A stretch of 64,000 bases of DNA from Oscillospiraceae bacterium (GTDB lineage: Bacteria; Bacillota; Clostridia; Oscillospirales; Ruminococcaceae): NCBI GenBank assembly GCA_017414435.1, contig JAFQMN010000009.1, forward strand, positions 62,001 to 126,000, written 5' to 3'. Shown one piece after another: positions 6,937 to 62,819 of the stretch. How positions within the stretch are numbered: the stretch's first letter is position 1; every line of letters starts with the position of its first letter. The position numbers were made by a program, and so were the translations under genes. Below the pieces are notes generated by a model. It saw only the letters and a list, made by a program, of their open reading frames with translations, had not been told where the DNA came from and searched no databases.

Positions 6937-8694
6937 TTGCAGAATTCCAATAAGATTTATTCGATTAATGGGGCAATTATAAAAGTAAAAGATACTAAAG
7001 ATTTTTTTATGTTAGAAAAAGTCTTTGTGGGACAAAAACAACTGATTGGTGAAGTTATTGCTGTAAATGAAAATGAAACGACAATTCAAGTGTATGAGTC
7101 AACAGCAGGCCTGAAACCTGGTGAAGAAGTTTTAGGGTCTGGCATGGCAATGAGTGTAACTTTGGGTCCGGGATTGGTCTCTAACATATTTGATGGAATT
7201 CAAAGGCCTTTAAAAGCTTTGAATAGTGTTTATGGTGCTACTATTTTACCTGGCAGCAAAGTTAAAGTTTTAGATGAAGATAAGCTATGGAATGTTAGTG
7301 TGAAGGTGAAAGTAGGGCAGACCTTAACTCCGGGGCAGATCTATGCTGTGTGTTCAGAAACTCAGCTTATTGAACATCGTTTAATGGTGCCGCCGAATAT
7401 TAGTGGCATTGTAGTGAGTTGTGCAGCAAGTGGATTGCATAAATTATTAGATGTGATTGTGATACTTGAAGATGAAAATGGCAAGCAGCATGAGTTGACT
7501 TTATGCCAGCAGTGGCCAATAAGGGTGCCAAGACCGACAAAGCAAAGGCTTGAGCTTAACATGCCGTTAATTACAGGGCAGCGTGTGATAGATTCTTTAT
7601 TCCCGATTGCTAAAGGCGGTGTGGCTGCTGTGCCTGGTGGATTTGGCACAGGGAAAACTATGACGCAGCATCAATTAGCCAAGTGGGCAGAGGCAGATTT
7701 GATTGTTTATGTTGGATGTGGTGAGCGCGGCAATGAGATGACGCAGGTGCTTAAAGAATTTGGAAGCTTAATTGACCCGAAATCGCAAAGGCCTTTAACC
7801 GAGCGCACTATTTTGATAGCTAATACGTCTAACATGCCAGTTGCGGCAAGAGAAGCTTCTATTTATACTGGAGTGGCAATTGCAGAATATTACAGAGATA
7901 TGGGTTATGATGTTGCTATGATGGCAGACTCTACATCACGTTGGGCAGAAGCTTTACGTGAAATTTCTGCTAGTCTTGAAGAAATGCCGGCAGAAGAAGG
8001 GTTCCCGGCTTATTTGCCATCTAGGCTTTCACAGTTTTATGAAAGGGCAGGCAGATACAAAACTTTAGGCGGAATGGAAGGCTCAATTTCGATTATTGGG
8101 GCAGTTTCTCCTCAGGGTTCTGATTTTTCGGAGCCGGTAACTCAGAATACAAAAAGGTTTGTTCGCTGCTTTTGGGCGTTGAGTAAATCTTTGGCGTATG
8201 GAAGGCATTACCCGGCTATTGATTGGAATATGAGTTATACAGAATATATTGAAGATTTAAGATTGTGGTTTGAAAGTAATTTAGGATCAGAATTTTTACA
8301 ATTTAGGCAAGAAGTATTAAATATTTTACAGGACGAAACAAAATGGTTAGAAATTGTTAAGTTAATTGGGTCGGATGTTTTGCCGGATGAGCAAAAATTG
8401 ACATTAGAAATTGCCAAAATAATTAGGGTAGGTTTTTTGCAACAGAATGCTTATCATAAAATAGATACTTATGTGCCACTAAAAAAACAAATGTTGATGA
8501 TGGGGATTATACTTAATTTGTATAATAAATGTAAAAATGTGTTAAAATCTGGTGCTTTATTTACTGATATTTTAGGCACAGGGATTTTTGAAGTGGTTAC
8601 CAAATTGAAGTATGACATTGCCAATGATGATTTAAAAAAGTTTGAAGATTATAATAAATTAATTGAAACCAAGTTGATGGTGTTGAATAATTAA
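6937..8694 (+). CDS. ntpA: V-type ATPase catalytic subunit A
   Basis: Catalytic ATP-hydrolysing subunit, 585 aa. The P-loop GGFGTGKT lies near residue 234 (many relatives have GAFGCGKT), followed by VYVGCGERGNEM with the catalytic Glu and MMADSTSRWAEALRE. The inserted 'non-homologous region' characteristic of A over B subunits is present between the beta barrel and the P-loop. TTG start at 6937 with GGGGTGAT 8 nt upstream. Next gene is ntpB. Confidence 0.98.
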   Translation: MQNSNKIYSINGAIIKVKDTKDFFMLEKVFVGQKQLIGEVIAVNENETTIQVYESTAGLKPGEEVLGSGMAMSVTLGPGLVSNIFDGIQRPLKALNSVYGATILPGSKVKVLDEDKLWNVSVKVKVGQTLTPGQIYAVCSETQLIEHRLMVPPNISGIVVSCAASGLHKLLDVIVILEDENGKQHELTLCQQWPIRVPRPTKQRLELNMPLITGQRVIDSLFPIAKGGVAAVPGGFGTGKTMTQHQLAKWAEADLIVYVGCGERGNEMTQVLKEFGSLIDPKSQRPLTERTILIANTSNMPVAAREASIYTGVAIAEYYRDMGYDVAMMADSTSRWAEALREISASLEEMPAEEGFPAYLPSRLSQFYERAGRYKTLGGMEGSISIIGAVSPQGSDFSEPVTQNTKRFVRCFWALSKSLAYGRHYPAIDWNMSYTEYIEDLRLWFESNLGSEFLQFRQEVLNILQDETKWLEIVKLIGSDVLPDEQKLTLEIAKIIRVGFLQQNAYHKIDTYVPLKKQMLMMGIILNLYNKCKNVLKSGALFTDILGTGIFEVVTKLKYDIANDDLKKFEDYNKLIETKLMVLNN

Positions 8695-8719
8695 TTAGCA
8701 GAAATTAAGGTGGTTTAAT

Positions 8720-10096
8720 TTGAGCTTTGAATATTTAGGATTAAAAGAAATAAATGGTCCTTTAGTAGTTTTGGAGGGCGCGTTAAATATTGCTTTTGAG
8801 GAAATGGTTGAACTTAAATTAGAAGATGGATCGGTTAAGGCTGGCCGTGTTGTTTATTTGGACGATGAAAAAGCAATTATTCAGGTTTTTGAAGGCACTT
8901 ATGGACTTTCGTTGACTAATACAAAAACAATTTGTTCTGGTAGACCGTTGACTTTACCGGTTTCGGAAGAAATTTTAGGGAGAGTGTTTTCTGGTTCTGG
9001 CAAGGCAATTGATGGATTAGGCGAGATCTGTGCGGAAAAGTATTTGGATATTAATGGTGCTCCTCTTAATCCAGTTGCTAGAACTTATCCAAGAGATTTT
9101 ATTCAAACTGGTATTTCTGCTATTGATGCTCTTTCTACTATTATTAGAGGGCAAAAATTACCGATATTTTCTGGCTCGGGCATGCAGCACAATAAATTAG
9201 CAGTTCAAATTGTTAATCAGGCAAGTGTTAAAAACAGCAGCAATGATTTTTGTATTGTTTTTGCAGCAATGGGAGTTAAAAATGATGTAGCAACATTTTT
9301 TAAACGTTCGTTTCAAGAGTCTGGGGTTGCTAATAATGTAGTAATGTTTCTTAATTTATCTAATGATCCTATTGTGGAACGAATATTAACACCAAGGTGT
9401 GCGTTAACTGCTGCGGAGTACCTTGCTTATGAAAAGGGTAAACATGTTTTGGTTATTTTGACAGACATGACAGCATACGCAGAAGCTTTGAGGGAATTTA
9501 GCTCTTCTAAAGGAGAAATCCCTGGCAGGAAAGGATATCCGGGGTATCTTTATTCGGATTTGGCTTCTATTTATGAACGAGCTGGGATTATTGAAGGGTT
9601 AGAAGGTTCTGTTACTCAAATTCCAATTTTAACTATGCCGAATGATGATATTACGCATCCTGTTCCCGATTTGACAGGTTATATTACAGAAGGGCAGATT
9701 GTTTTAGACAGGAATTTAGACCAAAAAGGGATTTATCCGCCAGTTTCAATTTTACCGTCACTTTCGCGTCTTATGAAAGATGGAATAGGAGAAGGCTTTA
9801 CTCGATGGGATCATTCGGTTCTTGCTAATCAATTATTTTCATCTTATGCCAAAGCGCAAGATGCCAGGTCGCTTGCATCTGTTATTGGAGAGGAAGAACT
9901 TTCGGCTTTAGATAAAAAGTATTTAAATTTTGGGAATATGTTGGAAACAGAATTTATTGGACAGTTGGCAAGTGAAAATAGAACGATTGAAGAAACATTG
10001 GATTTAGGATGGAAATTGTTAAAAATGTTCTCTAAAGAAGAACTGGACCGTGTGGATGAGGAAACGTTTAATAGAATTTATGGCTTGAAAAATTAG
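8720..10096 (+). CDS. ntpB: V-type ATPase subunit B
   Basis: Non-catalytic nucleotide-binding subunit, 458 aa. It contains the degenerate loop [12 protein letters not shown] where catalytic subunits have a P-loop, [15 protein letters not shown], and [14 protein letters not shown], all B-subunit signatures. TTG start at 8720 preceded by AAGGTGG. Follows ntpA by 25 bp. Confidence 0.98.
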
Positions 10097-10120: not shown

Positions 10121-10744
10121 ATGCATTCAAATAATATATTCCCCACAAAGGGCAACCTTTTGAATTTAAAGAAGAGTTTAGCTCTTTCTAAAATGGGGCA
10201 TAATCTTTTAGGTAGAAAGAAACAGGTGCTTTTGAGAGAAATGATGCGCATGGTTGCGAGTGTTAATAAGATAAAAACAGAGATAGATACCTGTTTTTTT
10301 GATGCATATTCGGCATTAAGGAAAACAAATGCAACATTAGGGTTAAGAACATGTTATGAGATCGCACAAAGCACGTTGACTGATGCGGGTTTAAAGGTGA
10401 ACCAAACAAGCTTAATGGGAGTAGAATTAATTTCGGTTGATTTTAAGCAAAGCAAAAGTATGTGCCAATATTATTTAACAGGGACGGATTCGCAGTTAGA
10501 TGCAACGGTACTTTTATTCAATAAATTGAAGCAAAAGTTAGCAATGCTTGCAGAATTGGAGCATAATATATATAGACTTGCACTTTCTATTAAAAAAACA
10601 GAAAAACGCACAAATGCGCTTAAAAATTTAGTTATTCCTAAGTTTGAAGAAAACATAAAATATATTTCTGATGTGTTGGAAGAACACGAACGTGAAGAGT
10701 TTTCACATCTTAAAGTGATTAAAAGAAACAAGGAAAATCTTTGA
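10121..10744 (+). CDS. ntpD: V-type ATPase subunit D (central rotor shaft)
   Basis: Rotor shaft that turns inside A3B3. About 207 aa, mainly two long helices with the family N-terminus PTKGNLLNLKKSLALSKMG and C-terminal KTEKRTNALKNLVIP. ATG at 10121 is chosen because GAGGTGA (10106-10112) precedes it by 8 nt; the in-frame GTG at 10109 is inside that RBS. Last gene of the ATPase operon; lysS follows after 18 bp and may be co-transcribed. Confidence 0.95.
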   Translation: MHSNNIFPTKGNLLNLKKSLALSKMGHNLLGRKKQVLLREMMRMVASVNKIKTEIDTCFFDAYSALRKTNATLGLRTCYEIAQSTLTDAGLKVNQTSLMGVELISVDFKQSKSMCQYYLTGTDSQLDATVLLFNKLKQKLAMLAELEHNIYRLALSIKKTEKRTNALKNLVIPKFEENIKYISDVLEEHEREEFSHLKVIKRNKENL

Positions 10745-10762
10745 AAAGGATGGATATTTATT

Positions 10763-12274
10763 GTGAGTGAAGGTATAAACAATTTTAATTTAGATTCAAA
10801 TGTTGAGCAGGATGTTATAGATTCTGAGCTACTTAAAATTAGGCGGGCTAAGTTAGAAGATTTGAAACAAACAGGGCAAGATCCGTTTTTAGTTACCAAA
10901 TTTGAAACGAACAAGCAGATCAGCGAAATTAAAAATAATTTTGAAGAGCTACAGGAACAAGAAGTTAAAATAGCTGGGCGAATTGTTTCTTGGCGTGATA
11001 TGGGCAAGGTATCTTTTATAGATTTGCAAGGGGATGACAAAGTTCAGTTGTATTTTAAACTAGAAAATTTACCGCCGGAACAGCATGAAAGTTTTACTAA
11101 ATGGGATATTGGGGATATTGTAGGTGTTTGTGGGAATGTATTTAAAACGAGACGTGGTGAAATTTCTGTTAGAGTAACATCTTGTGAGTTGCTTGCTAAA
11201 TCTTTATTACCGTTACCAGAGAAATTCCATGGCTTGAAAGACACAGATTTACGTTATAGGCAAAGGTATTTAGATTTAATTATGGATAGTGAAGTGAAAA
11301 ATACGTTTATAATTAGATCTAAGGTGCTTAAGGCTATACGCGAATTTTTAGATTCTAAAGGCTTTTTGGAAGTGGAAACGCCAATTTTACAGAACGTTGC
11401 AGGAGGAGCTGCTGCACGGCCATTTGTAACGCATCACAATGCGTTGAATATGGAAATGTTTTTAAGAATAGCGTTGGAGCTTTATCTTAAACGTTTAATT
11501 GTTGGTGGAATTGATAAAGTGTATGAACTAGGCAGAGTGTTTCGCAACGAAGGGATTTCTATTCGGCACAATCCAGAGTTTACTGAGCTGGAGCTTTATG
11601 AGGCTTATAAAGATTATGAAGGGATTATGCAACTTACCGAAGAAATGTTAAGGTTTGTGGCGCAAAAAGTGCTGGGTACTACAAAGATTTTATATGGAGA
11701 TGTGGATTTAGATTTAAGTCAGCCGTTTGAACGTATTACAATGGTTGAAGCTGTTAAAAAATATTCTGGTGTAGATTTTGATGCTATAAAAGACTTGCAG
11801 GCGGCAAGAAAGGCGGCAGATGAGCATAATATAAGCTATAAAACTGAGCATTTAAAAGGAGATATTTTAAATTTATTTTTTGAAGAATTTGCAGAAAAGC
11901 ATTTGATTTCTCCTACATTTGTTATAGATTATCCGGTAGAGATATCACCTTTGGCTAAAAGAAAGCCGACAAACCCAGATTATACTGAAAGGTTTGAATT
12001 GTTTATAGTAGGGAGAGAGTATGCTAATGCGTTTTCGGAATTGAATGATCCGATTGACCAGCGGCAAAGGTTTATGCGGCAGTTACAATTACGGCAGGCA
12101 GGGGATTTAGAAGCTAATTTGCCAGATGAAGACTTTGTGACAGCGCTTGAATATGGAATGCCACCAACTGGTGGGTTGGGAGTGGGAATAGATAGGTTAG
12201 TTATGTTATTAACAAATAGTGAGTCTATTAGAGATGTTTTATTTTTCCCGACGATGAAGCCGTTAGATAAGTAA
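10763..12274 (+). CDS. lysS: Lysyl-tRNA synthetase (class II)
   Basis: Charges tRNA-Lys. 503 aa, standard length: N-terminal OB-fold (about residues 55-160), then the class II core with motif 2 FRNEGISIRHNPEFTELE and motif 3 GLGVGIDRLVMLL. GTG start with AAAAGGATGG upstream. It follows the V-ATPase operon without a visible terminator or promoter. No T-box leader is possible in the 18-bp gap. Confidence 0.98.
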   Translation: MSEGINNFNLDSNVEQDVIDSELLKIRRAKLEDLKQTGQDPFLVTKFETNKQISEIKNNFEELQEQEVKIAGRIVSWRDMGKVSFIDLQGDDKVQLYFKLENLPPEQHESFTKWDIGDIVGVCGNVFKTRRGEISVRVTSCELLAKSLLPLPEKFHGLKDTDLRYRQRYLDLIMDSEVKNTFIIRSKVLKAIREFLDSKGFLEVETPILQNVAGGAAARPFVTHHNALNMEMFLRIALELYLKRLIVGGIDKVYELGRVFRNEGISIRHNPEFTELELYEAYKDYEGIMQLTEEMLRFVAQKVLGTTKILYGDVDLDLSQPFERITMVEAVKKYSGVDFDAIKDLQAARKAADEHNISYKTEHLKGDILNLFFEEFAEKHLISPTFVIDYPVEISPLAKRKPTNPDYTERFELFIVGREYANAFSELNDPIDQRQRFMRQLQLRQAGDLEANLPDEDFVTALEYGMPPTGGLGVGIDRLVMLLTNSESIRDVLFFPTMKPLDK

Positions 12275-18089: not shown

Positions 18090-18104
18090 AAAATGGGGGG
18101 GGTA

Positions 18105-30141: not shown

Positions 30142-31566
30142 TTGTTTAGAAGAAGATATAAAAATGGTTTTTTAGTTTGTTTAATTATTATTTATCCATT
30201 AATATTTTCATCTTGCATGGAAATTAATTTTAACGTAGAAAAAGATATGAAGCCCCCGATTATTTCAGAAGATCAGAAGGGGATTCAAGAGGCACTTGCA
30301 CGTTTTACTGACAACCAAGAATTGAAATTAATTTACCCTAAATCTGGTGAAAATGTTATGCCATTTATTAGGCGAAGTACAAAAGACAAAGATAAAAATA
30401 CAGTTTTTGTATTTTATTCTGTTACTAACAATAATAAAACAACAACTAAAATTGCTATGCTTAAAAAGAATTCAAATATTTGGAATGTAATTAGTAGTGT
30501 GGTTGTATCTAACAGGTATAATTGTGAAATAGAGGATGTATCTTTTAGGAGGATGCGCAAATTAGGAAACGATAATCTTATTGTGGGAGTAGGAACGCAG
30601 GGCCAGAGGACAAAAGAAGTGTTTGTTTATGAGTATACCGATACTAAATTGCGCGAGATAGAAGATATGAATCACAGCTATGCAGCTAAAATTTTAACGG
30701 ATATTGATGATGATGGTTTTGATGAATTAATTTTGATCGATAGGCCTGTAAATGCAGAACCTAGTATTATAATGGTTAAACTTTGTGAAACATCACTGCT
30801 TGAATATACAGTTAGCTCTTGCTATGCTCCTTTAAAAGAGAGTTCTAACATTGTAAAAGATGCAAAGCTGACAGTGGGAAAACTAAAAAATAACAATAAG
30901 GCTATATTTATTGATGAAATAGTTTATGATGAAAGTCAAGAGAAGGAAATAATAGCAACTGAATTAGTGGAATATGTTGACAAATATGGATTAGTGAATA
31001 GGACGTTGAAAACAGAAAAAAATTTAGGAGATACAAATTTTGATTTAAGCTACTTGACACAGAGAGGGAAGAATGTAGAACTTGTTGATATAGATGGAGA
31101 TGGTTGCCTTGAAATTCCATGCGAAAGACCAATTACAGAGTTCTTAAATTCAGGAGAAGAAAATTTAAAAGAAATTGATTGGTATTCTTTTTATGGTGAT
31201 AATGTAAAACTTTCTGCAATTGAAATTATGGATATTTGGGCACAATATAGATTAAAACTTAAACCGGATTGGTTTGCAATAAAGCACGAAAAATTAAGTA
31301 ATACGGATGTGGAAGTTGAAGGTAGAACATTACAAGTAAGCGGTTACTATAAACCGGAATCGAACGGGCATATGCTAGTGCTAGAAAAAGGAAACGAAAA
31401 AATAGTTATTTATGTTGTACCAAGAGGTAAGAAAGTAAAAAATATTTTCTCTAAATTTGCAACTTCAGGGGAATTAGATTATTATGTATCTATTCCTAAT
31501 GAATCTGAGGAAGAACAGGCGATTTCCATGCGAGAATTTCAAAAGCTTTTTAAATTGTTAAATTGA
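30142..31566 (+). CDS. Lipoprotein with FG-GAP/VCBS-like Asp-rich repeats
   Basis: About 474 aa. Signal sequence with lipobox FSSC near residue 25, so membrane-anchored outside the cell. Two Ca-binding-like Asp motifs, TDIDDDGFDEL and VDIDGDGCLEI, are typical of beta-propeller FG-GAP/VCBS units. Function unknown. TTG at 30142 preferred over TTG 30130 because GGTGAT precedes it. Immediately after the RnfA-like gene, so the two may form a membrane unit. Confidence 0.78.
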   Translation: MFRRRYKNGFLVCLIIIYPLIFSSCMEINFNVEKDMKPPIISEDQKGIQEALARFTDNQELKLIYPKSGENVMPFIRRSTKDKDKNTVFVFYSVTNNNKTTTKIAMLKKNSNIWNVISSVVVSNRYNCEIEDVSFRRMRKLGNDNLIVGVGTQGQRTKEVFVYEYTDTKLREIEDMNHSYAAKILTDIDDDGFDELILIDRPVNAEPSIIMVKLCETSLLEYTVSSCYAPLKESSNIVKDAKLTVGKLKNNNKAIFIDEIVYDESQEKEIIATELVEYVDKYGLVNRTLKTEKNLGDTNFDLSYLTQRGKNVELVDIDGDGCLEIPCERPITEFLNSGEENLKEIDWYSFYGDNVKLSAIEIMDIWAQYRLKLKPDWFAIKHEKLSNTDVEVEGRTLQVSGYYKPESNGHMLVLEKGNEKIVIYVVPRGKKVKNIFSKFATSGELDYYVSIPNESEEEQAISMREFQKLFKLLN

Positions 31567-57889: not shown

Positions 57890-57952
57890 AGATTAATTTC
57901 AGATTGGAATTGAACATTGTTGTTCAAAAAAATTAAAAGGAGAGAGTTAAAT

Positions 57953-58300
57953 ATGAGAGTTTCTTTTACAGGAATTGGAGAAACAGTAGTAACATTTGAA
58001 TCCGATAAAAAACTTGAAGTAGGAACATTAGTTAATGTTGCTGAAAGTGGTAAAGTGGCCGCAGCTAAAGAGAATGAGAAGTTTGTTGGAATTGTTGTGA
58101 ACGCAACTGAACATGAGGCAAGTGTGCAGATTAAAGGTTATGTTAAAGTAAAATTCGAAGGGACGATTGAAGCAAATGCACTGGGCTGTTGTAATATGTG
58201 TTTAGGGAAGGAAGGAAAGTTAAAATTAAGTGACAAAGGAAGGGAAGTTCTATTGTTAGATGTTAATACTGAAAATAGTGAAATTGGGATTTTTATGTAG
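57953..58300 (+). CDS. Phage capsid decoration-like small protein
   Basis: About 115 aa, all-beta character with repeated Gly/Val turns (VGTLVNVAESGKVAAAKENEKFVGIVVNA), resembling small decoration/stabilisation proteins encoded beside phage capsid genes. Strong RBS AAAAGGAGAGAG before ATG 57953; the earlier in-frame TTG lacks one. The assignment depends on the two following genes. First gene of a three-gene operon. Confidence 0.6.
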   Translation: MRVSFTGIGETVVTFESDKKLEVGTLVNVAESGKVAAAKENEKFVGIVVNATEHEASVQIKGYVKVKFEGTIEANALGCCNMCLGKEGKLKLSDKGREVLLLDVNTENSEIGIFM

Positions 58301-58314
58301 AAGAGGATATGTTT

Positions 58315-59244
58315 ATGGAAAATAATATAATGATGCAAAATATTGATTCGGATTTAGAATTGATTAATAAACTTACTCGCAGACCGCTTAAAGCAGAAGA
58401 AGTATATACATTTAATGTGGTACTATGTGATAATGACCTCGATCGTGACTTTGAAGTGTTTGATTTAAAATGCTTATATGAATTAAAAGAACTGTTTTTA
58501 GGAAAAACAGGTATATTTGATCATGATCCAAAAGGAAGTAATCAAACATCTCGTATATATTTTACAGAAGTTGTGCGCGATCCAATAAAAAAAACAAAGC
58601 TAGGGCAGGATTATTATATGCTAAAAGCTAAGGCATATATGATTAGAAATGAAAAAAATAAGGACTTAATTGAAGAGATAGATGGTGGAATAAAAAAAGA
58701 AGTAAGTATTGGCTGTAGCGTTTCTTGTGTTAAATGTTCAATATGTGGATGCAACACAAAAAAAGAGAAGTGCGAACATGTTTTGGGGAATAGATATATT
58801 ATAAACGGAGAAGAACAATTATGCTATCATGTTTTAGAAAATGCCAGTGACGCTTATGAATGGTCTTTTGTAGCAGTGCCAGCTCAAAGGCAGGCAGGAG
58901 TAGTAAAAAGTATAAGAAAAAAGTTTACAGATTCGTACGAAACTAATAATTTTGGCAACGAAGACCAAACACAGTTAAATAAGTGCTTGGAATATATTTC
59001 GCAGCTAGAATCAATTGTAGGCGAGTTTGAAGAGGAATTAAGATCACAAGTAAAAAAATCATTTGCAGTTTTACAACCGGAGTTAAAACTTTCTACAATA
59101 AAAAGTATGGTAGAAAAATTAAATGTTGCAGAATTAAAAGAGATAAAAAAAGTACAAGATGAAAAGATGGGCAAGAATGTTATAATTCAAGCAGAAGGAG
59201 CAGAAACATCAAAAGATACAGACTTAACCAAATTTTCAATTTAA
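58315..59244 (+). CDS. Prohead (capsid maturation) protease
   Basis: About 309 aa. HK97/herpes-type assemblin-like protease: candidate catalytic His in IFDHDP (H70) and Ser in KKEVSIGCSV (S131), followed by a Cys-rich finger (C138, C141, C144, C146, C153, H155) and DAYEWSFVAVPAQ, a motif I associate with clostridial prophage proteases. The last ~100 residues are a charged coiled coil, like scaffold domains fused to proteases. ATG 58315 has AGAGG 8 nt upstream. Precedes the capsid gene by 16 bp. Confidence 0.82.
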   Translation: MENNIMMQNIDSDLELINKLTRRPLKAEEVYTFNVVLCDNDLDRDFEVFDLKCLYELKELFLGKTGIFDHDPKGSNQTSRIYFTEVVRDPIKKTKLGQDYYMLKAKAYMIRNEKNKDLIEEIDGGIKKEVSIGCSVSCVKCSICGCNTKKEKCEHVLGNRYIINGEEQLCYHVLENASDAYEWSFVAVPAQRQAGVVKSIRKKFTDSYETNNFGNEDQTQLNKCLEYISQLESIVGEFEEELRSQVKKSFAVLQPELKLSTIKSMVEKLNVAELKEIKKVQDEKMGKNVIIQAEGAETSKDTDLTKFSI

Positions 59245-59260
59245 AGGGAGGACATTTATT

Positions 59261-60259
59261 ATGGAATGTTATAAAAGTGTAAAGTTAGATAAAGACATGT
59301 ATAGAGTAGCGAATAAAAGTTTTTCAGAAGTTCTAGAAAGCTATGATAGTTCAAGTAACTATAGAGAAAGTTCACTTGCAAATATAGATGCATTTCAGCG
59401 TCAGTTAAAGCGGTTCGATATAAGAGTAGGACGGAACAATTCAGATGAGGTAGAGAAATTTTTCAGAAGTGCACAAACGGCCACATTATTTCCAGAATAT
59501 GTTTTGCGTGCAGTAAAATCTGGCACAGATGTAGTTAATACACTTAATGAAATAATTGCAGTTAAAACAAAAATAGACAGTATGGATTATCGTGCAATAT
59601 ATTTTGAACAAGATGATGAGCCTACGGTTATTGGGGAAGGAGCATCAATTCCTAGCGTTAATATAAAATTAAAAGAAAATTTAGTGACATTAAAAAAGAC
59701 AGGTCGGATGTTGGTAGTAGATTATGAAACTATTAAGAATAGAAAGATAGAAGTATTTACAATTGCATTAAAACAGATTGGTTATAAAATTGCGGAACAA
59801 CAACTAAAAAGTGCCATAGATATTTTAATAAATGGTGATGGCAACTTTAAACCAGATGTAAAAACAATAAGTGGTGGTTTAAAGTTTGAAGATCTAATAG
59901 ATTTATGGAACAGTTTTACTGAATATAAAATGAACACAGTGTTAATTTCTCCTAACATGGCCAAAAAGATGCTAGGCCTTAAAGAAATTTTTAATCCATA
60001 CAACGGTTTAAAATTTGAATTAACAGGCCAAGTAGATACTCTCATGGGAGCGAGATTATTAAAATCCAAATTTATACCAGATGATGTAATTATTGCTCTG
60101 GATAAAAATTTTGCTTTAGAGATGGTATGTTGTGGAGATATTCAAGTTGATTATGATAAATTAATCGATAGACAACTTAAACGTTCGACAATTACTTCAA
60201 CTTATGGTTTTACCAGAATTTGTGAAGATGCAGTTAAGATTTTAAAATTTTCCGAATAG
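59261..60259 (+). CDS. HK97-fold major capsid protein
   Basis: 332 aa. Region from about 68 on (SAQTATLFPEYVLRAV, then IYFEQDDEPTVIGEGASIP, LKKTGRMLVVDYE, LISPNMAKKML, TSTYGFTRICEDAVKIL) has the motif order of phage HK97-like capsid proteins. Residues 1-65 are polar and may be the delta domain removed by the protease. AAAGGGAGG RBS. A terminator follows 12 bp after the stop, and no portal, terminase, connector or tail genes are present. Encapsulin is less likely because of the dedicated protease. Confidence 0.85.
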   Translation: MECYKSVKLDKDMYRVANKSFSEVLESYDSSSNYRESSLANIDAFQRQLKRFDIRVGRNNSDEVEKFFRSAQTATLFPEYVLRAVKSGTDVVNTLNEIIAVKTKIDSMDYRAIYFEQDDEPTVIGEGASIPSVNIKLKENLVTLKKTGRMLVVDYETIKNRKIEVFTIALKQIGYKIAEQQLKSAIDILINGDGNFKPDVKTISGGLKFEDLIDLWNSFTEYKMNTVLISPNMAKKMLGLKEIFNPYNGLKFELTGQVDTLMGARLLKSKFIPDDVIIALDKNFALEMVCCGDIQVDYDKLIDRQLKRSTITSTYGFTRICEDAVKILKFSE

Positions 60260-60271
60260 TAAAGTAAACAC

Positions 60272-60300
60272 AAAAAATCCCCTTGAATAGGGGATTTTTT
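60272..60300 (+). terminator. Terminator of the capsid operon
   Basis: Perfect 11-bp stem AAAAAATCCCC / GGGGATTTTTT with 7-nt loop. It shows that the capsid operon ends here. Confidence 0.93.
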
Positions 60301-60459
60301 ACTTATATATAAAATAGAAATTTTTTTTTATTTGTAACTTATTTTGTAGAATATAGAACTTAACAGAATTTATTATATAACAACAAATAAATTCAAACAT
60401 GCTAATATTAATTACAAGATTGGTAAATTTATACAAATAAGTTAACATAAATTACATAA

Positions 60460-60488
60460 TTGACAAGCTAATTCCAATATGTTAGCAT
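60460..60488 (+). promoter_or_regulatory. Likely promoter of the DGR
   Basis: TTGACA (60460-60465), 17-bp spacer, TAGCAT (60483-60488), 52 bp before avd. The 160 bp before it are very AT-rich, with partly repeated GCTAAT/TTAGCAT words and no ORF. Confidence 0.55.
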
Positions 60489-60539
60489 TAATATAAACGT
60501 ATAATTTAGCGCAAAAGTACATAAAGGGAGAAGATTCTA

Positions 60540-60935
60540 ATGACAGCAGGAGAACTGGCGGTTATAACTAAAGCGAAGGATGTTTGCAATTATATTATAA
60601 CAGTTACAGATAAATCCCCTAAAAAATTTCGTTTTACCTTAATTGGGCGTATGCAAAATTATGCTCTAGATATTATAGAAGGAATGATTATGGCAAATGA
60701 AGTTTACGTTACAGAAAAAGGACGAAGTATTAATGTAGAAGCATTAAAAGAGAGGCAAAAATTGCAAAGGAATGTGCTTACAAACATAAAACTATTGGCA
60801 TATGTATCGCAACTTTCTATGGAGCAAAAATGCATATTACCAAAACAATATGAGCAGATTACAGAAAAGCTCTATACATGCCAAAACCTCTTGGGCGCCT
60901 GGATTAAAAGCGATTTGAAAAGGTTTGGCAAATAA
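60540..60935 (+). CDS. avd: DGR accessory variability determinant (Avd), four-helix bundle
   Basis: 131 aa, basic, predicted four helices. Features of Avd-like four-helix proteins: KFRFTLIGRMQNYALDIIEGMIMANEV near the N-terminus and a basic C-terminus (LGAWIKSDLKRFGK). Avd forms a pentameric barrel that binds the DGR RNA and reverse transcriptase (family knowledge). It sits directly before the template repeat, as in canonical avd-TR-RT cassettes. ATG start with AAAGGGAG RBS. Confidence 0.9.
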   Translation: MTAGELAVITKAKDVCNYIITVTDKSPKKFRFTLIGRMQNYALDIIEGMIMANEVYVTEKGRSINVEALKERQKLQRNVLTNIKLLAYVSQLSMEQKCILPKQYEQITEKLYTCQNLLGAWIKSDLKRFGK

Positions 60936-60985
60936 TATCGGTATATCACACGTTTAATGTGTAGATATATAGGGATATGGTTGCA

Positions 60986-61108
60986 TGGTTCTGGTTGCGT
61001 TCTCCGAACGCGAGCAATAGCAACAATGCGCTGAATGCTAATACTGGCAACTATGTGAATAACAACAATGTCAACAATAGCAATAGGTGCGTCCCCGCAT
61101 GGCCTTAA
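60986..61108 (+). repeat. DGR template repeat (TR)
   Basis: Read in frame from 60986 it gives WFWLRSPNASNSNNALNANT, then GNYVNNNNVNNSNRCVPAWP and a stop (TAA 61106-61108). About 15 of 40 codons are AAC/AAT, whose adenines are the mutable positions of DGRs. This matches variable-region ends of C-type-lectin/FGE-fold DGR targets (xLRSP...NNNNVNNSN...VxPA). There is no start codon or RBS, so it is a template, not a gene. Exact edges are inferred; no VR copy is found in the window. Confidence 0.9.
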
Positions 61109-61116
61109 CGTCTGAT

Positions 61117-61138
61117 GATGTTTTTAAGGAAAAACATC
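61117..61138 (+). promoter_or_regulatory. Hairpin immediately after the TR
   Basis: Perfect 9-bp stem GATGTTTTT / AAAAACATC with 4-nt loop AAGG, 8 bp downstream of the TR end. BPP-1-type DGRs carry a stem with a 4-nt loop just after the VR that aids retrohoming; here a similar element follows the TR. Its role is inferred. Confidence 0.55.
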
Positions 61139-61394
61139 CGGTGAAGCTAATCATGAATTTGCTTCTTAACCTTAAGGCAAAGGAACCATATTCCTTTTTG
61201 ACTGCAAACTAAACTGAATTTGTGTGGATTTATTTTTCGGTTTTGTTAAGCAGCAGAAAAATACATACCGCCGGAAGGAAAAATGTATAAAGGAAATACT
61301 GTGAAGAAGATACTTTTGGACTGTGGCGCAAGCCCCGGCGGCTAGCGGAAATGGTAAAATAGGAAATAGTTAAAAACAAAGGGGAGTATTACAA

Positions 61395-62447
61395 TTGTAT
61401 GAAAAATTAACAGATTTTGCGAGTATTTATCAGGCATATAGAAAAACAGCAAAAGGGAAACATAATGAAAACGAGGTAGTACGTTACGAAACGAATTTGC
61501 ATATGCAATTATGGCGCTTAAAAGAAAGAATAGAAAATAAGACGATAAAAATTGGTGGTTACCATAAATTTATGGTGTTCGATCCTAAAAAACGAGAGAT
61601 CCAAGCACTAAGCTTTTCAGATAGAGTATTTCAACATTTACTATGTGATAAAGTGTTAATGCCATATTTTGAACCTAAACTAATTTATGATAATGCTGCA
61701 TGCAGAAAAAATAAGGGCACACATTTTGCTCAAAACCGCTTTTCTAGCTTTTTAAGAGATCACTATAAAAAATATGGTAGTAAAGGCTATATTCTAAAAT
61801 TCGACATCAAAGGCTATTTTAACTCTATACACCATAAAGTGCTGAAAGAAAAACTTAAAAATTTTCCAGATAAAGACGTTAAAAAACTTCTCTATTATAT
61901 TATAGATAGCTACGAAAATGAACCAGAACGCGGTATACCCATGGGAAATCAATCTAGTCAATGGTTTGCACTTTATTATCTAGACTGTCTGGATAGAACT
62001 ATAAAAGAAAAATTGCATATCAAATATTATATCAGGTATATGGATGATGGAGTGCTATTACACCAAGATAAAGAGTATTTGAAAAAATGCCTAGCAATTA
62101 TAAAAGAGCAAGCAGCTAAAGATAAACTTGAATTTAATAAAAAAACACAAATTTTCCCATTATGCCAAGGGGTAGATTTTTTGGGGTTTCACTTTTATCT
62201 TACAGATACCGGCAAAGTTATAAAAAAACTTAGAACATCTAATAAAAAACGATTCAAAAGACGCCTTAAACGGTTTGAAAGGCAATATGCAAAAGGTCAA
62301 ATCTCTTATGAAGAAATAAAAAGAAGTCTTGCTAGCTACCAAGGTCATCTAAAGCACGGTCATACATATAAACTTAGGAAACATGTAATCTCTAATATAA
62401 AATTTACACAAAAATCAAACAAAAACGAAACAGAAAATAGCTTTTAG
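61395..62447 (+). CDS. Diversity-generating retroelement reverse transcriptase
   Basis: 350 aa, compact DGR-size RT that copies the TR with adenine mutagenesis. Motif A FDIKGYFNSI (D137), motif B/4 GIPMGNQSSQW (181-190) with the DGR-style GNxxSQ in place of the group II QGxxxSP, catalytic YMDD (215-218), and GVDFLGF after it. Basic C-terminal thumb. No maturase or endonuclease domain. TTG start at 61395 after AAAGGGGAG. The gene ends inside a terminator. Confidence 0.93.
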   Translation: MYEKLTDFASIYQAYRKTAKGKHNENEVVRYETNLHMQLWRLKERIENKTIKIGGYHKFMVFDPKKREIQALSFSDRVFQHLLCDKVLMPYFEPKLIYDNAACRKNKGTHFAQNRFSSFLRDHYKKYGSKGYILKFDIKGYFNSIHHKVLKEKLKNFPDKDVKKLLYYIIDSYENEPERGIPMGNQSSQWFALYYLDCLDRTIKEKLHIKYYIRYMDDGVLLHQDKEYLKKCLAIIKEQAAKDKLEFNKKTQIFPLCQGVDFLGFHFYLTDTGKVIKKLRTSNKKRFKRRLKRFERQYAKGQISYEEIKRSLASYQGHLKHGHTYKLRKHVISNIKFTQKSNKNETENSF

Positions 62448-62460
62448 AAAAGCTATTTTT
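62435..62460 (+). terminator. Terminator at the DGR RT stop
   Basis: AAAATAGCTTTT / AAAAGCTATTTT followed by more T; the arms overlap the TAG stop. Closes the DGR transcript. Confidence 0.85.
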
Positions 62461-62477
62461 TTATATTTTAAAATATT

Positions 62478-62528: not shown

Positions 62529-62819
62529 TCACACTCTTGGTAAGCGTACGTTGTAAGTGTAACTAGCTGACTCCCCACCACTAGAGCTTTTAGTAGTGCT
62601 ACTACTTTGTCCTGAAGATTGCCCACTAGATCCACTAGACCTGCTAGTTGTACTAGTATGTGTAGTAGTTGATGCACTACTGCTTGGACTCGAAGATTTT
62701 CTAGTACTACTTGAGCTAGTCTTACCATTGCTACCGTTAGCAAAAGCCATTTGACTGCACAAAAGTACAAATATGCTTGCAACCGAGCAACATACACTCC
62801 TTTTACATTTTTTTAACAT
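62529..62819 (-). CDS. Ser/Thr-rich secreted peptide, unknown function
   Basis: 96 aa. Signal peptide MLKKCKRSVCCSVASIFVLL... with cleavage probably after AFA (about residue 27). The mature ~69 residues are extremely rich in Ser, Thr and Gly without Cys, ending YTYNVRLPRV. RBS GGAGTGG before ATG. Convergent with the DGR RT. It is not a variable-repeat protein: it has none of the TR motifs. Could be a wall-associated, glycosylated or structural peptide. Confidence 0.7.
   Translation of the reverse strand: MLKKCKRSVCCSVASIFVLLCSQMAFANGSNGKTSSSSTRKSSSPSSSASTTTHTSTTSRSSGSSGQSSGQSSSTTKSSSGGESASYTYNVRLPRV

Follow-up and report, generated by a model that had tools for sequence, protein, structure and literature searches.

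Which genes does a diversity-generating retroelement (DGR) rewrite when no target lies beside it? The question is raised by a locus in a 64-kb stretch of Oscillospiraceae DNA (called the window herein), where a sequence-only reading had described a full cassette of avd, template repeat (TR) and reverse transcriptase (RT) with no VR-like copy in the window, and had proposed that the element acts in trans on remote, perhaps surface-protein, genes. All three parts of the cassette were found (Table 1). The RT contains the motifs GNQSSQ (within GIPMGNQSSQ) and YMDD, including the GxxxSQ motif of the DGR clade, and matched phrog_1423 of PHROG (E = 5.5e-113); against the PDB, the RT of the BPP-1 DGR (8ub7, E = 6.5e-36) came far ahead of the runner-up (E = 1e-9). 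In a tree of 70 RTs the RT grouped with the DGR RTs, in a set of six with L015, L016, L018, L019 and L047, while the outgroups (group II intron RTs and Drt3a RTs) fell elsewhere; support was strong for this local clade and moderate for the wide split between DGRs and outgroups. The avd product matched phrog_3206 (Avd; E = 8.7e-21), and since neither its match to NCBIfam Avd NF033474 (E = 1.1e-14) nor that to Pfam bAvd (E = 1e-9) reaches the curated cut-off, we regard it as a divergent Avd. By the sequence tests applied, the avd-TR-RT cassette is a DGR.

Some limits of the cassette needed correction. Fourteen of the 37 TR codons are Asn (AAY) codons, and the stretch shared with the VRs described below ends at 61098, or at 61101 if the last mismatch is counted, and not at 61108 as first proposed. 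The region 60936-61394 is 95% identical to that of a sister species, a fold of -78.8 kcal/mol (z = -2.0) was obtained for 61086-61394, and the spacer between TR and RT is probably part of the TR RNA. The promoter-like site at 60460 agrees with the consensus, in a region that held four such matches where 12 were expected on shuffling. At the possible terminator a hairpin and T run can be seen by eye, and the terminator scan made no call because the hairpin has too few G-C pairs. Directly 3' of the RT, 62529-62819 (minus strand) encodes a small Ser/Thr-rich, secreted-looking protein, whose counterpart in the sister species has a different repeat region.

Table 1. Features of the DGR, its remote targets and phage-type genes (positions in the window unless preceded by a contig name)
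Feature	Position	Strand	Remarks
avd, DGR accessory protein	60540..60935	+	131 aa, intact
Template repeat (TR)	60986..61098	+	between avd and RT; matches both remote VRs
TR 3' end, IMH-like, AGGTGCGTCCCCGC	61085..61098	+	identical in VR1, VR2 and the VR of the sister
TR-RT spacer, non-coding	61099..61394	+	probably part of the TR RNA
DGR reverse transcriptase	61395..62447	+	TTG start, 350 aa
Hairpin and T run, possible terminator	about 62435-62463	+	overlaps RT stop codon; seen by eye
T1	C8:113167-115872		901-aa ORF, downstream of dnaJ, holds VR1
VR1	C8:114848-114963	-	inside T1
T2	C8:223085-225289		T1 paralogue, holds VR2
VR2	C8:224258-224373	+	inside T2
Portal gene	C8:225355-226512	-	adjoins T2
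TerS/TerL pair	C8:66.2-67.8k

The check that the sequence-only reading had named, a search of the whole genome with the TR, was run on 935 kb (0.94 Mb; 98% complete, nine contigs). The search returned the TR itself and exactly two VRs, both on contig C8 (E = 1e-37 and 1e-32). Patterns made from the 5' and 3' ends of the TR led to the same three places, and the reversed control found nothing. VR1 has 16 mismatches to the TR, all but one at A (15; p = 2e-7), and VR2 has 11, of which ten are at A (p = 5e-5), plus one deleted base. Each VR has a single mismatch at another base, which in T1 and T2 is a T-to-G change beside changed adenines. No VR was found in the window beyond the TR itself, nor on the DGR's own 204-kb contig, where the DGR lies in mid-contig. 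The absence of a nearby target was confirmed, and the proposed action in trans is supported by two remote VRs with adenine-specific mismatches. Neither of the outcomes that the sequence-only reading had named as refuting it was obtained: VRs with A-specific mismatches exist, and the RT is inside the DGR clade.

Two further signals accompany the VRs. The TR ends in 14 bases, the IMH AGGTGCGTCCCCGC, that are identical in all VRs, and a 17-nt IMH pattern with up to three mismatches has no occurrence in the 935 kb outside the TR, VR1 and VR2. Each of the three genes with a VR (T1, T2 and the T1 orthologue of the sister species) can form a hairpin on the coding strand downstream of the VR, past the end of TR similarity, with stems of 8 bp and a 4-nt loop in T2, 6 + 4 bp and a 3-nt loop in T1, and 7 bp and a 3-nt loop in the sister. 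These hairpins were stronger than those of synonymous-codon shuffles (p = 0.002, 0.024 and 0.064, values that are not independent). Their loops (GCCA; 3 nt) do not match the GRNA consensus of phage DGRs, and at about 37 bp from the IMH they lie slightly past the published 4-34 bp. In BPP-1, the hairpin is needed for efficient homing and its stem sequence is free to vary; in an experiment, transfer of an IMH and hairpin to a different gene sufficed to redirect a DGR (PMC3240598). Five non-target paralogues of T1 and T2 were aligned, three from this genome (C6:119.7-121.5k, C8:26.6-29.4k and C5:196.3-197.9k) and two from the sister, and TR similarity beyond a short stretch, the IMH and the hairpin are absent in all of them. 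Since true targets and non-target paralogues are found in one genome, the locus is a natural counterpart of the IMH/hairpin transfer experiment (PMC3240598).

As had been anticipated in the guess at surface proteins, both targets begin with a signal-peptide-like N-terminus, and from this we predict that T1 and T2 are secreted. The N-terminus is followed by a DUF6273-like domain with the VR inside, and in T1 by Ig-like domains and then by a C-terminal domain found family-wide. The domain matches DUF6273 (PF19789) with E = 0.0017 in T1 and 2e-4 in T2, both under the cut-off, and a profile match ties the T1/T2-type domain to the target of L015 (E = 1e-8). DUF6273 is a known DGR-target domain and reportedly C-type-lectin-like (PMC10743442, PMC11792537). 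The C-type-lectin type of variable end proposed earlier therefore has a sub-threshold domain match behind it, and for the remainder rests on this literature.

The only other genome of the genus examined, that of a sister species from cattle rumen (0.8 Mb), has the same cassette block at the same place, between pbp1A and uvrA, and no VR on its 75.8-kb DGR contig. Its single VR lies in the T1 orthologue, with ten of 11 changes at A (p = 4e-5). The TRs of the two species differ at six sites, none of which sets a VR at odds with its own TR: at four, all three VRs have the base of their own TR, and the other two sites are A in one of the species. Since the VRs follow their own TR and the synonymous divergence of neighbouring genes between the species is 0.3-0.7, we infer that they were rewritten from their own TR after the split. 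These comparisons point to retrohoming in trans since the two species separated, and would make the remote layout older than that separation.

We conclude that this is very probably a chromosomal DGR that acts only in trans, on two remote secreted targets. By analogy with BPP-1, the avd and RT products would reverse-transcribe the TR RNA, putting random bases opposite its adenines, and the resulting cDNA would replace the VR, with IMH and hairpin marking the target. In T1 and T2, the rewritten stretch would be part of the DUF6273 (C-type-lectin-like) domain. Since that stretch lies inside a domain of secreted proteins, rewriting probably varies what the cell surface binds.

The breaks seen in several of these genes could mean that T1 and T2 were diversified in the past, and that the DGR is now inactive and the VRs are fossils. 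The frame of the sister RT is broken by two insertions and that of the sister portal gene by one, and T2 is broken twice, once in the signal-peptide part, where there is a 9-G tract, and once in the VR by the one-base deletion, the remaining gene being open. We consider a relic unlikely, as RT, avd and T1 are intact here, dN/dS against the sister species is 0.053 for the RT, indicating purifying selection, and 0.074 for avd, and the VRs match the TR of their own species, so that activity postdates the split. Since the sister RT is broken and yet gives a dN/dS of 0.053, its break should be recent or an assembly error; these insertions and the frame lesions of T2 may alike be real decay or assembly errors. 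Both T2 lesions fall at fast-changing sites, a homopolymer and a DGR-rewritten stretch, and T2 may have become a pseudogene recently, may be a gene that is off for now or may be an assembly artefact. T1 is the working target, T2 being out of frame at present. A coding phase switch in T2 was also considered and set aside: the other tracts of at least eight G in the genome are mostly intergenic, so the tracts alone give such a switch no support.

It is considerably less probable that the DGR under study belongs to a prophage or gene-transfer-agent-like element that owns the flanking phage head genes. Decoration, protease and capsid genes do lie just upstream of it (57917-60259) in both species, under purifying selection (dN/dS 0.04-0.12 against the sister), and a portal gene lies beside T2. 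However, no RT was found in the sequence examined of the capsid's phage relatives (L204-L208), none of six head clusters from family members had a match to the avd or RT found here, the targets are not tail proteins and begin with signal-peptide-like sequence, and a strong, bidirectional terminator-like hairpin (60270-60302) separates the capsid gene from avd and the rest of the DGR. No functional link between the DGR and the head genes was found, and we judged their association to be coincidental or historical. The locus does not fit a prophage-borne DGR with a virion target: only isolated head genes lie nearby, and the targets look secreted and unlike virion proteins. That a cis target was simply missed, or lies within the missing 2% of an assembly that is 98% complete in nine contigs, is barely credible given a DGR in the middle of a VR-free 204-kb contig and a 75.8-kb sister contig that is likewise VR-free, while one more remote VR elsewhere is possible.

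As to the head genes themselves, a related portal gene was found in 20 of the 61 genomes searched, usually once, and was accompanied by protease and capsid genes in six of six clusters examined. This set resembles the gene-transfer-agent-like elements recently described from Oscillospiraceae and Ruminococcaceae (PMC12946183). The head and packaging genes (decoration, protease, capsid, portal and TerS/TerL), which stand intact and under purifying selection in three places of this genome, could possibly form a dispersed system of that kind.

The remote arrangement of the trans-acting DGR can be set against its relatives. Of 57 RT relatives flanked on both sides by 4 kb or more, 50 have a VR in cis by a simple A-bias test. 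The nearest RT, that of L015 (Ruminococcaceae RUG11259; 59-60% identity), has a cis target just downstream of it, which is secreted and DUF6273-like with an internal VR. Because the L015 target is in cis, we reason that the genus once had such a target and then lost it; on this comparison, an ancestral cis target was probably lost. No cis VR was found in L016 and L019 of the nearest clade, and these were left out of the remote-target DGRs because their TR was unrecognised too. In L018 (Clostridiales SIG415), long direct-repeat arrays (7700-9550 and 10235-10957) lie near a cis-VR DGR.

A comparison of T1 and T2 bears on how a second remote target arose. Just upstream of the VR they are 25-50% alike; at the VR there is a sudden onset of similarity, and over about 115 bp beyond the IMH they are near-identical except in the hairpin, which differs and yet pairs in both. 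So sharp a start looks like the copying of a cassette and is less easily given by descent of whole genes, with the caveat that the DGR itself homogenises the VR. We infer that one paralogue probably received from the other a cassette made up of VR, IMH, hairpin and flank, giving the second remote target. A fuller scheme, in which targets spread by cassette copying (the flank included being about 100 bp), the G tract acts as a switch for T2 and the lesion in the T2 VR would be overwritten at the next retrohoming, so that T2 is silent and can be re-activated, is more doubtful, and we hold it tentatively at best.

Compared with BPP-1 (mtd-avd-TR-brt; PMC3240598), the order avd-TR-RT, a homologous RT, A-specific changes and a hairpin 3' of the VR are shared. 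The BPP-1 target, however, is a tail protein encoded in cis with its VR at the 3' end, whereas the targets here are remote and secreted, and are longer proteins with an internal VR. Remote-target DGRs are known from Treponema denticola, cyanobacteria and Thiohalocapsa PB-PSB1 (PMC4891356, PMC7517822, PMC10907252). As far as the passages cited go, these also have one DGR with paralogous targets elsewhere, mostly exported proteins in Treponema, but there the remote targets occur alongside a local-target DGR, or at loci with partial DGRs; here, neither species has a cis target, and the genome is below 1 Mb. Since remote targets are known elsewhere, the novelty lies in targets that are only remote, in two small-genome species, and in a clean contrast between target and non-target paralogues.

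Closer likenesses in the targets come from phages. The Tentaclin targets of gut phages nd4 and nd12 (PMC10743442) and the DUF6273 targets of Faecalibacterium prophages (PMC11792537) also carry the VR in a DUF6273-like C-type-lectin domain followed by Ig-like domains, and the nd12 RT is 45% identical to the one here. Those targets are phage proteins encoded with their RT in one phage genome, unlike T1 and T2 with their signal-peptide-like N-termini and a C-terminal domain common to paralogues in the genus, and T1 is only weakly similar to nd12 target 1 (hhalign probability 31%). The DGR of L015 resembles the one here in having the nearest RT and a secreted target of DUF6273-like type in which the VR is internal, and differs in its cis target downstream of the RT. 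Surveys of metagenome contigs are blind to remote-target DGRs (PMC8144416); as this case shows, a whole genome can reveal the targets of a DGR that seems to have none. Purifying selection on a DGR in a genome of less than 1 Mb suggests that variation of the surface proteins matters to the cell.

Several minor observations concern the T1 paralogues and the G tracts. One non-target paralogue of T1 (locus L211, C5:192000-199000) lies between SPASM radical-SAM-like and ABC transporter genes, a neighbourhood that suggests peptide export. On the same contig, a 509-aa open frame has an in-frame 9-G tract (C5:29998-30006) and a T1-type C-terminal domain (31090-31245), hinting at a surface-attachment module shared with T1. 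About a dozen tracts of 8-9 G occur in this A+T-rich genome, among them 18095-18102 of the window, C2:14070, C5:189925, C7:43293, C8:149294, C8:181979 and C9:21478. Several lie between genes in the context TTCGACAAAAAT-GGGGGGGG-TATTGA...TATACT, with Spo0A-box-like and promoter-like sequence adjoining; these could be copies of one regulatory element, or phase-variable promoters.
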